DNA of 64,000 nucleotides, taken from Opitutaceae bacterium (GTDB taxonomy: Bacteria > Verrucomicrobiota > Verrucomicrobiia > Opitutales > Opitutaceae). Under the pieces are notes generated by a model, which ran no database searches, was not told where the DNA came from, and saw nothing but the letters and a program-made list of their open reading frames with translations. Below, in pieces: positions 45,153 to 54,408 of the stretch; the stretch's first letter is position 1; the number at the start of each line of letters is the position of its first letter. The translations under genes and the position numbers were made by a program. The stretch spans positions 1-64,000 of the forward strand of contig JANJTQ010000175.1 of assembly GCA_024711005.1 (NCBI GenBank), in the 5' to 3' direction.

Positions 45153-45237
45153 GGCGTAGTACGGAGCGTCAGCCCGCATCGTGAGATTCACGACGGCTTT
45201 AACACTCGGGATGCGGGCTAAAGCTCCGCACTACGCC
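45153..45237. repeat. Palindromic repeat family A (A7)
   Basis: GGCGTAGTACGGAGCGTCAGCCCGCATC ... GATGCGGGCTAAAGCTCCGCACTACGCC. Confidence 0.93.
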
Positions 45238-45274: not shown

Positions 45275-47227
45275 ATGATCGCCGTAAAACCTCCGTCGCC
45301 GGAAGCGCCTGTTATATCTTCCCATTCGCCGAAACTTCCGCCTCCGATTCCCCCGATCGACGAAGCCCGCGTTCGCGAGATCAGCGGCCTAATGGAGAAC
45401 CATCCGGTCTTCTTCACGCCGCGGTTCTCCGACCGAGTCTTCTGGAACGCACGCGCCCGCGAAAAATCCGTCGACGTGCTCGCCGCCGAGGCCAACCGGC
45501 TCGCCGCCCTCCCGGTGCCGGAACTGACCGCCACGCTATTCGCCCGGTATTTCGCCACCGGAGAACGCGCCCCTTACGAACAGACCTTCTCCGAGCGCTC
45601 CCACCGTCTCAACGTGTTCCTGTTCGCAGAAGGTTTGTCCGCCAACACCCGCTATCTGCCAGTCATCGAACGCGAACTCGCCGCCATCCTCGATGAACCG
45701 ACCTGGGCATCTCCCGCCCACGTGCAGGGCCAGTCCGACTGGACACGCTGCCGGCAGGTGATCGACCTCGCCGCCGCAGCCCGCGCCTGGAGCCTCGCCA
45801 CCACCGATTTCCTACTCGGCGACCGCCTCGCCCCCGCCACCCGCGCACGCATCCGCGCCGAGATCCGCGACCGCGTGCTCGGACCCTATGCGGCCCGCGC
45901 GCTCCGTGGCGGCCAGGCCGAACATCTGTTCCGCTGGATGACCGGCGTCAGCAACTGGAACGCCGTGTGCAACGCCGGCGTCTGCGGGGCCGCGCTCCTC
46001 TTGTGCGAAACGAAGGCCGAGCGCGCCTGGTTCGCCGCCGCCTTCGAGGCGTTCACCCGCCGCTTTATCGACGGATACGCGGACGACGGATACTGCCACG
46101 AAGGCATCGGCTACTGGGTGTATGGCTTTGGCCACTACGCCATGGCGGCCGAAGCCGTCCGGCTCTCGACCGCCGGCGTGGTCGATCTCGCCTCGCGAAG
46201 CGACAAGATCCGCCGCATCGGCCGGTTCGGCGCGAACTGGAGCATCGACGGGAAATTGTATCCGGCTTTTGGTGACGCCCATATGGACAATCCGCCACCG
46301 GCCTGGCTCAACGACTTCTGCGCGCGGCGTTACGGCGTCTCCGCAAGTTCGCCCGCCGCCCGCGCGCCGGACGGTCTTTCGTATTTCCGGCACGGCCTGG
46401 GCGCGCACCTCTTTGTCACCGCCTTCGATCTGGCCTCGCCTTCACCCGCGTCCGGTGCCGCTGCGGCGTCGCACATGCCGCCGCGCAGCTGGTATCCCGA
46501 GGGCGGGGCCCTCGTCGCACGCCGCGCCAATCCGACCCGCGGTCTCGCCGTCGCGCTCAAGGGCGGTGACAACGGTCAGCCGCACTGCCACCACGACCTC
46601 GGTTCCTTCGTCGTGTTGTGCGACGGCGAACCGCTGCTCCTTGATCCGGGGCGCGACACCTACGTGCGCGACACGTTTTCCGAAAAGCGCTTCACCAGCG
46701 GCATCATGAACTCCTTTGGCCATCCCGTGCCCCGGGTGGCCGGCCGGTTCCAACGCGGCGGATCGGAAGCCCGCGCGGTCACGATCCGCGCCGACTTTAC
46801 CGACGAAAACGACACCTGGGAGATCGATCTCACCAGCGCCTACGACGTGCCCGAACTGGAACGGCTCAGGCGCACCTTCACGTTTTCACGCTCGGACGGC
46901 GGCCGACTGGAGATCCGCGACCACGTGGTTTTCCACAGGCCGCAGACCTTTGGCTCCGCCTTGATTCTGGATCCCGCGCTGCACCACGAGGCAATGGAAG
47001 CGGGATGCCGTGTTCGGGGCGGAACCGCGGCGGTGACTGTGCGCTGGCGCGCAAAGACCGACGGCACGGCCGGAGCGGTCCACGTTAACGAGGAACCGGT
47101 GTTCGGCATCGTCCCCTCGGAAGGCCCGAAGGCACTCCGCATCGGACTCGAACTTGCCGCGCCCGTCCGCGAGGCGACACTGACGGTTGTCGTCACCCGT
47201 AGTGCGGAGCTTAGCCCGCATCCTTGA
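45275..47227 (+). CDS. heparinase II/III-like polysaccharide lyase
   Basis: NWNAVCNAGVCGAALLL, DDGYCHEGIGYWVYGFGHYAMAAE, GDNGQPHCHHDLGSFVVLCDGEPLLLDPGRDTY; last codons and stop lie in repeat A8. Confidence 0.85.
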   Translation: MIAVKPPSPEAPVISSHSPKLPPPIPPIDEARVREISGLMENHPVFFTPRFSDRVFWNARAREKSVDVLAAEANRLAALPVPELTATLFARYFATGERAPYEQTFSERSHRLNVFLFAEGLSANTRYLPVIERELAAILDEPTWASPAHVQGQSDWTRCRQVIDLAAAARAWSLATTDFLLGDRLAPATRARIRAEIRDRVLGPYAARALRGGQAEHLFRWMTGVSNWNAVCNAGVCGAALLLCETKAERAWFAAAFEAFTRRFIDGYADDGYCHEGIGYWVYGFGHYAMAAEAVRLSTAGVVDLASRSDKIRRIGRFGANWSIDGKLYPAFGDAHMDNPPPAWLNDFCARRYGVSASSPAARAPDGLSYFRHGLGAHLFVTAFDLASPSPASGAAAASHMPPRSWYPEGGALVARRANPTRGLAVALKGGDNGQPHCHHDLGSFVVLCDGEPLLLDPGRDTYVRDTFSEKRFTSGIMNSFGHPVPRVAGRFQRGGSEARAVTIRADFTDENDTWEIDLTSAYDVPELERLRRTFTFSRSDGGRLEIRDHVVFHRPQTFGSALILDPALHHEAMEAGCRVRGGTAAVTVRWRAKTDGTAGAVHVNEEPVFGIVPSEGPKALRIGLELAAPVREATLTVVVTRSAELSPHP

Positions 47228-47277
47228 ACGCATCGCATACCTCCAGCCCCCGATTTCGGGCTGAAGCTCCGAACTAC
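47199..47277. repeat. Palindromic repeat family A (A8)
   Basis: GTAGTGCGGAGCTTAGCCCGCATCCTTGA ... TCGGGCTGAAGCTCCGAACTAC. Confidence 0.93.
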
Positions 47278-47292
47278 GACGGAGGACCCGCC

Positions 47293-47312
47293 CTGCTTAA
47301 TAACGTCACCAA
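47293..47312 (+). promoter_or_regulatory. 20-bp motif site S5 upstream of beta-helix/ricin gene
   Basis: CTGCTTAATAACGTCACCAA. Confidence 0.5.
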
Positions 47313-47425
47313 CGGGCGCGTTGAAACGATTGCGATCCTCGGCGCAGGCTCGTTATGCAGCCGAACCCCCGTGTCTTGTTATCGGATGCAGCCGGTTCGG
47401 CCTTCACCCCCAACCCCATCGAACC

Positions 47426-49654
47426 ATGAATCCAACCCCTCCCCATTCGTCGCATCCGTGGATGCTTCTGTTGGTCCTTTTTTCGGCCCTCCTGATTCCC
47501 GTCCGGGCCGCCGACTATTATCTCACCGTGGCCGGCAGCGGCGCCAAGACCGGTGCCAGCTGGGCCGACGCCTATGACGTCGGCGCGCTCTGGACGACCG
47601 TCAACACCACCATGCAGCCCGGCGACACCCTCTACCTCGGCGGCCCGGAAACCTCGGGCGGCGCCACCTACGGCGACCAGCGCCTGACCATCTCGTCGAG
47701 CGGCACGGCCCTGGCCAAAAAAAGCCTGATCGGCGTTGATCGCGGATTTGGTTTTCCCCAGTTCGTCGGCATTCAAGCCACGCGCAGCTACACGACCATC
47801 AGTCTGGCGGACACCGTCAGCCACTGGACGATCAAAAACCTGCACATCGAGCATCGCGAATACGGGATTGCCACGGCGGGCACCGGCCATGTCGGCATCA
47901 CCATCGACGGCGTCACCGTGCGCGCCGTGCGCAACGCCGGTTTTGCCTTCACGGACTGCGACGACCTGCTCGTCCAGAATTGCAAGGCCGAGCGCTACAG
48001 TGGAATCGGTTTCAAGTTCAACCACTCTTGCGACGGCGTGACGGTCAAGAACTGCGTCGCCAACTGCACCGGCATCGGCCTCGCCGACGACCCTTCGTGG
48101 CGCACCAGTTGCAGCAGTCCCGTCGGCTTCGACTTCCACATCAAAAACAGCACCGCCGCCTTCAACACCGACATCCTGCTCGAGGACTGCCTCAGTCTGC
48201 ACAACAACGAGGACACCGCCGACACCTCCGACTACGAGCAGGGCGACGGCTTCAAGATGGAACGCCGCAACGACGGCGTGACCCTCCGGCGCTGCATTTC
48301 CAATCAAAACCAGGACGCCGCCTATGATCTTAAGGGCGAGGACCAACTTCTTGAGGACTGCATCGCCTCGGGCAACTTCCGCTACGGCTTCAAGGTCTGG
48401 TATGAAGGCACGTTGAACAACTGCGCCTCGGTCAACAACGGTGCCCGCCAGTTCACCCTCGCGTCAACCTCCTCCGGTTACACCGTCACCGGCAACCACT
48501 GCACCTTCCACTGCAACACCGGCCAGGCCGGCGCGGTCATCGAGACCTCCGGAAACACCCTTGTTCTCAACGACAGCATCATCTCCTTCGGCAGCTCCGC
48601 CGGCACCTACACCGCCGGGTCCGGGACCTTCTCCCTGAGCAGCACCTCCAAACTGGCCAACACATCCAACACCGCCAACCTGCCTCAGTACATCAACCCG
48701 GCGCTGCCATGGGACGGCACCGGCACCGATTTCGACAACCAGACCTACGGCTCGACCAAGGGATACAACTCCGCCGGCTTCACCGGCGGCGGTGGCGGGG
48801 GCGACGAAATCATCGTCGACAACGCCGACCCCACCGGCGTGACCATCACCGGCTCGTGGACCACGAGCACCTTCACGCCCGGCTACAACGGCGCCGACTA
48901 CCTGCACGATGGCGACACCGGCAAAGGAACCAAGAGCGTGCGGTTCACGCCGACGATTCCCGTCGCCGGCAACTATGACGTGTTCATGATCTGGACGTCC
49001 GGAACCAATCGAGCAACCAACGTGCCGGTGGACATCGTTTCCGCCACGGGCACGACGACCGTCGTCGTCGACCAAACCGTCAACGGCGGACAGTGGGTCT
49101 CGCTTGGCGCCTACGATTTCGATGCCGGCACGACCGGCAGCGTGCTCGTCCGCACCACCGGCACCAACGGCCACGTCATTGCCGACGCCGCCGGCTTCGT
49201 CAGCTCCACCCCGCCGGCGATCACGTCGCCCGCCAAGATCATCAACAGTCACACGTCCAAGGCGTTGCGCCCTTACAACTCGGGCACCGGCGACAACGTG
49301 AACATCATCCAATATACCTACAACGATACGTGGACGAGCGAGCGGTGGACGATCACCGACTTGGGCAACGGCTACCATTCCATCCGCAACGTCTACACCG
49401 GCAAGGCGCTCCGACCGCTGAACTCGTCGACCTCTTCGGGTGCCAACATCGTCCAATACGCCTACGACAGCTCCTGGCTCAGCGAACAATGGGAACTGAT
49501 CCCCGAAGGAGGGGGCTACTACGGCATTCGCAATCGCTACAGCGGACTCGCGCTGCGCCCGCTCAACGCCGGCACCGGTGACGATGTGCAGATCGTCCAA
49601 GAAGCCTACAACGCCTCCGACGCCAGCATGAAGTGGCTGATTGCCGCCCCGTGA
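47426..49654 (+). CDS. exported beta-helix protein with Golvesin-like and ricin-type lectin domains
   Basis: Signal peptide; beta-helix coils; EIIVDNADPTGVTITGSWTTSTFTPGYNGADYLHDGDTGKGTKSVRFTPTIPVAGNYDVFMIW; three repeats of (K/L)ALRPxNxxTxxxxNIxQ..W. Confidence 0.87.
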   Translation: MNPTPPHSSHPWMLLLVLFSALLIPVRAADYYLTVAGSGAKTGASWADAYDVGALWTTVNTTMQPGDTLYLGGPETSGGATYGDQRLTISSSGTALAKKSLIGVDRGFGFPQFVGIQATRSYTTISLADTVSHWTIKNLHIEHREYGIATAGTGHVGITIDGVTVRAVRNAGFAFTDCDDLLVQNCKAERYSGIGFKFNHSCDGVTVKNCVANCTGIGLADDPSWRTSCSSPVGFDFHIKNSTAAFNTDILLEDCLSLHNNEDTADTSDYEQGDGFKMERRNDGVTLRRCISNQNQDAAYDLKGEDQLLEDCIASGNFRYGFKVWYEGTLNNCASVNNGARQFTLASTSSGYTVTGNHCTFHCNTGQAGAVIETSGNTLVLNDSIISFGSSAGTYTAGSGTFSLSSTSKLANTSNTANLPQYINPALPWDGTGTDFDNQTYGSTKGYNSAGFTGGGGGGDEIIVDNADPTGVTITGSWTTSTFTPGYNGADYLHDGDTGKGTKSVRFTPTIPVAGNYDVFMIWTSGTNRATNVPVDIVSATGTTTVVVDQTVNGGQWVSLGAYDFDAGTTGSVLVRTTGTNGHVIADAAGFVSSTPPAITSPAKIINSHTSKALRPYNSGTGDNVNIIQYTYNDTWTSERWTITDLGNGYHSIRNVYTGKALRPLNSSTSSGANIVQYAYDSSWLSEQWELIPEGGGYYGIRNRYSGLALRPLNAGTGDDVQIVQEAYNASDASMKWLIAAP

Positions 49655-49749: not shown

Positions 49750-49963
49750 GTAGTGCGGAGCTTTAGAGCGGTTCAGATAGAGTCCTGGCCATCGAGCTGC
49801 CGTGTGTAGTCATGCCCGTGTCGGGCGTGCTCCGGGATTCCGCGCGGATTTCGAGCCACGCGGCCGACACGGCCGCGGCTACAACTTTATTTGAAATGCT
49901 AGCCCGCATCGTGAACCTCCCGCTCTCGCGAGGCGTTCCGTTCGGGCTAAAGCTCCGAACTAC
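49750..49963. repeat. Palindromic repeat family A (A9), interrupted by a MITE
   Basis: GTAGTGCGGAGCTTTA[134 bp]TAGCCCGCATCGTGAACC...GGGCTAAAGCTCCGAACTAC. Confidence 0.9.
49766..49899. mobile_element. IS630/Tc1-type MITE flanked by TA duplication
   Basis: Left GCGGTTCAGATAGAGT and right ACTTTATTTGAAATGC form an imperfect TIR (12/16); right end resembles the IS630 end at 162-189; TA at 49764-49765 and 49900-49901. Confidence 0.82.
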
Positions 49964-54236: not shown

Positions 54237-54408
54237 GTGGCATGGGCATCCTGCCCATGGAATTGCGAGGTGTAAATTAGCCACGCCCATGTCGGGCGTG
54301 CTCCGGGATTCGGAGCGGATTTCGAGCCACGCGGCCGACGCGGCCTCCGCTACAACTTTATTTGAAATGCGCATGACCCCGATCCCATGGACGAGACGCC
54401 CATGCCAC
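54237..54408. repeat. Palindromic repeat family G (copy 2) containing a left-truncated copy of the MITE core
   Basis: GTGGCATGGGCATCCTGCCCATGG ... GACGCCCATGCCAC; internal CACGCCCATGTCGGGCGTGCTCCGGGATTCGGAGCGGATTTCGAGCCACGCGGCCGACGCGGCCTCCGCTACAACTTTATTTGAAATGC matches 49810-49899. Confidence 0.85.

Follow-up and report, generated by a model that had tools for sequence, protein, structure and literature searches.

A putative IS630-type MITE carrying one REPIN and inserted into another in an Opitutaceae genome

The insertion site in repeat A

The analysed window (64,000 nucleotides) belongs to an Opitutaceae MAG near Rariglobus (G000; 5.01 Mb in 351 contigs, 96.6% complete). About 110 bp past the stop of a gene for a beta-helix protein with golvesin and ricin-type lectin domains, a GTAG-tagged hairpin repeat, repeat A, is interrupted by a 134-bp insert (Table 1). 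This gene and one for a heparinase II/III-like protein (45275-49654) are the genes beside the repeats. Read directly from the window, the locus is GTAGTGCGGAGCTT-TA-(134 bp)-TA-GCCCGCATC, and deleting 136 bp (the insert and one TA) leaves an intact repeat A. The joined flanks, GTAGTGCGGAGCTTTAGCCCG, are identical in every letter to the uninterrupted arm at 45214-45234 on the minus strand. The emptied repeat pair is 78 bp long, compared with 77-84 bp for the rest of the uninterrupted long-class pairs, and can be aligned with eleven other pairs of its family, F6. The original prediction, that a single event placed a 134-bp element here with duplication of TA, fits these observations, the right end having later undergone a small slip. 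Its example of an uninterrupted repeat, at 47199, was less apt: such repeats exist, but this one is one T short (GCTTAG) and is not the best empty site.

A chimeric join, introduced during assembly or binning, might also put a MITE inside a repeat, and the MAG is indeed in 351 contigs with IS630 copies at contig edges. Such an artefact is highly improbable, given that removing the insert and one copy of the 2-bp TA duplication gives back the REPIN exactly, and that the same MITE family is present in a separately assembled sister genome. The insertion itself is confirmed.

Repeat A is a REPIN, that is, a REP pair, of family F6. Each GTAG-tagged hairpin has the stem CGG-a-GC, the loop TTTA and the returning strand GC-CCG, and is weak (predicted −2.3 kcal/mol). 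There are 39 F6 REPs genome-wide, often as facing pairs, versus 1 in the reversed control. The insertion point is the TA of the TTTA loop in one F6 REP hairpin. One other MITE copy, on contig C199, has a flank reading GTAGCGCGGAGCTT-TA, which is the same loop TA of another F6 REP; its far side has diverged. The chance that 2 of 28 copies fall at F6 loop TAs is about 2e-5 (about 71,000 TA sites, 15 loop TAs), a figure that overstates target preference because insertions survive mainly between genes, which the estimate ignores.

F6 REPs are strongly clustered: this 78-kb contig carries at least 11 of the 39 (by a binomial estimate, a chance of about 2e-11), in the window between 28514 and 49963. 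A motif scan of the window found no RAYT for F6, including on this F6-rich stretch. The one candidate link between F6 and a RAYT is a single F6 REP in G002 that has a RAYT about 1 kb away (L096).

Table 1. Coordinates of the insertion, its parts and related features in the window
Feature	Position	Strand	Remarks
Right end of IS630 element, cut by contig edge	1..188	+	End of DDE_3 transposase and terminal repeat (173-188)
Interrupted F6 REP (repeat A), first part GTAGTGCGGAGCTT	49750..49763	+	Continues at 49900-49906
TA target duplication, left	49764..49765	.	
Putative IS630-type MITE, 134 bp	49766..49899	+	28 own-genome matches; ends and flanks of copies
Left terminal inverted repeat GAGCGGTTCAGATAGAGT	49766..49783	+	
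F1 REP, left arm of putatively captured REPIN	49806..49829	+	GTAG and 8-bp stem, 3-nt loop
F1 REP, right arm of putatively captured REPIN	49859..49882	-	Identical to free REPs in G032
Right terminal inverted repeat ACTTTATTTGAAATGC	49884..49899	-	2 bp short of consensus
TA target duplication, right	49900..49901	.	
Interrupted F6 REP, remainder TAGCCCG	49900..49906	+	
Partner F6 REP, same REPIN	49943..49963	-	
F8 REP left of second MITE copy	54237..54259	+	F8 REPs surround a RAYT in G002 (L101)
Second, eroded MITE copy	54260..54371	+	Match 54278-54370
F8 REP right of second MITE copy	54386..54408	-	

The MITE family and its IS630 partner

The insert is short and non-coding, and it has the terminal inverted repeats and multiple copies that had been claimed for it. 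There are 28 blastn matches in its own genome, and a search with the end motif gave 35 matches, compared with 4 for the reversed control. Ten copies have both ends, 7 of them with TA on each side (TA|TA) and 3 with one transition off on one side. Together, the blastn matches, the TA-flanked copies and the excess of end-motif matches exclude a chance origin. A BLASTn search with a listing of TA flanks had been proposed as a check; other TA-flanked copies do exist, and the empty sites are found among paralogous repeats of the same genome. Copies could not be counted from a loose scan for pairs of terminal repeats, which was too noisy and was used only for picking candidates by eye.

A typical copy is TA-GAGCGGTTCAAATAGAGTCATGGCC...GGCTACAACTTTATTTGAAATGCTC-TA, about 136 bp long. 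The window copy has the right end GC|TA where the consensus has GCTC|TA; it lacks 2 bp and so measures 134 rather than 136 bp. A CTCT to CT slip explains this shorter end, and the window copy may no longer be mobile. The MITE is also present in a Rariglobus sp. MAG (JAQSWS01), and the sister species G004 has 12 matches. The second copy in the window has lost its left end and is flanked on both sides by F8 REPs (GTGGCATGGGC...). In a general test for MITEs flanked by inverted repeats, the two window copies alone gave REP cases; most other copies lie outside REPs.

Ends like those of the MITE flank IS630/DDE_3 transposase fragments at contig edges of the same genome, including the fragment at the left edge of the window, and a complete 999-bp IS630 element with matching ends, TA|GAGCATTTTAAATAAAACTGTAGC...GCTATAGTTTTATTTAAAATGCTC|TA, is present in the relative G012. 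The MITE thus shares its ends with IS630 elements of the same or a near genome, although several positions of its left end do not match the IS630 end (GG for AT). These shared ends support the original assignment of the insert as an ‘IS630-type MITE’, which would have been moved in trans by the IS630 transposase. No complete IS630 coding region was found anywhere in the fragmented MAG. The contig of the window begins within an IS630 element, and copies also terminate contigs C20, C51 and C71. Intact IS630 copies are probably hidden by the assembly, because the copies sit at contig ends.

REPINs inside IS630-type ends

The interior had been read as one long hairpin, a reading that was rejected since it differs from the predicted fold. 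It consists instead of two separate facing hairpins, each with GTAG, an 8-bp stem and a 3-nt loop, and the stem positions change as pairs. Judged from these features, the interior is a REPIN of a second family, F1. The original interpretation of a MITE within repeat A stands, but it missed that repeat A is a REPIN and that the interior is a REPIN of another family.

F1 REPINs also occur free of the MITE, on contig C63 of G004, at C198:57535 in G000, and in G032. In G004, a RAYT gene (C63:22794-23252) is flanked on either side by F1 REPINs without IS630 ends; its product has the motifs MPDHAHLFV and YVRQNPVRAGL and matches Y1_Tnp below the Pfam cut-off (E 0.0003). In G032, which belongs to another genus, F1-type REPs are numerous, largely without MITEs, and surround a RAYT that is 59% identical to that of G004.

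Stem-loop folding is common in bacterial MITEs (PMC2229807), and the inner edge of the IS630 end, read inward, is TGTAGC(C), which is also how a REP tail is spelled. At one junction, some of the resemblance to GTAG is therefore contributed by the IS630 end itself. The insert could then be an ordinary IS630-derived MITE, palindromic inside by happenstance, with a REP likeness that arose by convergence helped by TGTAGCC in the end. We regard this as unlikely: F1 arms are found as REPINs outside the MITE and on either side of RAYT genes, which already weakens it; the second arm carries a separate GTAG, some 20 bp inward from the end; and several unrelated REP families are found in the same ends.

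Those families were recovered with a pattern blind to the interior (TTCAAAT...ATTTGAA). In the genus, IS630-type ends enclose pairs of F1, F2, F3, F4 and F5, of which F3 is not proven as a REP, and the remaining matches look like chance. Other species of the genus have different REPINs within the same IS630 ends. G001, where F4 REPINs lie on either side of a RAYT, also carries an F4 element, as does G007. For both F1 and F4, one junction between REPIN and end falls at the TGTAGC(C) of IS630. In G000, a second MITE family has the same ends with an F2 REP pair inside (L042, L043, L044 and L047, on C248, C314, C29 and C232), and a third has F3 arms (L045 and L046).

The REP families differ in how often they occur with these ends. 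In 464 kb of G000, an IS630 end is near 12 of 13 F1 REPs, whereas none is near 4 of 5 F2 REPs or any of 14 F6 REPs; for random positions, the baseline is 0.2% for both ends and 6.8% for one. F5 is mostly free in G002, with 9 of 14 REPs lacking a nearby IS630 end (400 kb). Over the whole of G000, MITE matches overlap 33 of the 34 F1 REPs; the remaining one is the free REPIN on C198. An F1-type RAYT was not found in this draft genome. Its own short RAYT (L083, C219) is flanked by a different REP type, GTAGGCCGCGAGCTTGCTCGCG.

That nearly all F1 REPs of G000 sit in MITEs would suit a reversed order of events, in which the F1 family was born from the MITE interior and was adopted by RAYTs later. 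This order is quite improbable, since F1-type REPs are numerous and largely MITE-free in the other genus, where they have their own RAYT. The REPIN would instead have been captured by the element rather than have arisen inside it; we favour capture because F1 REPINs occur free and bracket RAYT genes, and because the same ends enclose other REP families.

Overall, we think it likely that MITEs mobilised by IS630 captured REPINs and sometimes land in REPINs. At the level of sequence, this reading is supported by the ends, the TA duplication, the copies, the free F1 REPINs, the RAYT-bracketing REPINs of G004 and the insertion within a REP. An F1 REPIN would first have been captured by a pair of IS630 ends, and the copies would have spread in the genus afterwards. 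Capture may have gone through recombination at the short TGTAGC(C) match or through RAYT insertion beside GTAG. The IS630 transposase would then cut and paste the non-autonomous element at TA, duplicating the TA, and one MITE would have landed at the loop TA of an F6 REP, giving F6 REPIN [IS630 ends [F1 REPIN]].

Two unrelated families of small mobile sequences are nested here, with a MITE in the loop of one hairpin repeat and a second hairpin-repeat pair inside the MITE. REPINs are usually described as dependent on a resident RAYT. Here, F1 REPs appear to have multiplied inside the ends of another transposon, in a genome that yielded no matching RAYT. Together with the similar packaging of several REP families in one genus, this points to another way in which REPs could spread and persist. 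A wider reading, which we hold only tentatively, is that REPINs of this genus hitch-hike in IS630 ends after several separate captures and multiply without their own RAYT, while REP loops are preferred targets, so that capture and nesting reinforce each other. Two transposases would act on this one composite element, a pairing that can be put to the test.

Comparison with known systems

Known papers each cover part of this arrangement: RUP and IS630-Spn1, the REPIN/RAYT system, REPs as targets of insertion sequences, and the Anabaena palindromes. In the open-access literature, we did not find this combination, in which a single set of IS630 ends holds several REP families; a search there for REP elements with MITEs in Verrucomicrobia returned only PMC3733652, and one for chimeric MITE/REP elements returned nothing.

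RUP of Streptococcus pneumoniae has IS630-Spn1-like ends, inserts at TA and is often found in other mobile DNA (PMC2229807). Like the present MITE, it is a short non-coding element with IS630-like ends; it differs in its length (107 bp) and its listed ends (9 bp), and a REPIN interior is not described there (PMC2229807). REPs are known targets of insertion sequences of the IS3, IS110, IS4, IS256 and IS5 families (PMC1525189), which likewise place mobile DNA within REPs, but IS630 and MITEs are absent from the text of that paper. The REPIN/RAYT system (PMC3116915) resembles our case in that both the MITE interior and its target are facing pairs of tagged hairpins and F1 REPINs bracket a RAYT in a sister species. 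In contrast, the REPIN here would travel within IS630 ends, in a genome in which no F1-type RAYT was found.

Finally, in Anabaena variabilis, GTAG-15 dimers lie inside a long palindrome, TATAGGA...TCCTATA, and REP-free palindromes were not found there (PMC3733652, section 7). In both cases, REP pairs are enclosed by a repeated TA-ended palindrome. For the Anabaena palindrome, that paper names no transposase and one REP family, whereas the ends described here match a known IS630 and enclose several. The packaging of REPINs within IS630 ends has a bearing on those earlier Anabaena observations of palindrome-enclosed REP pairs.
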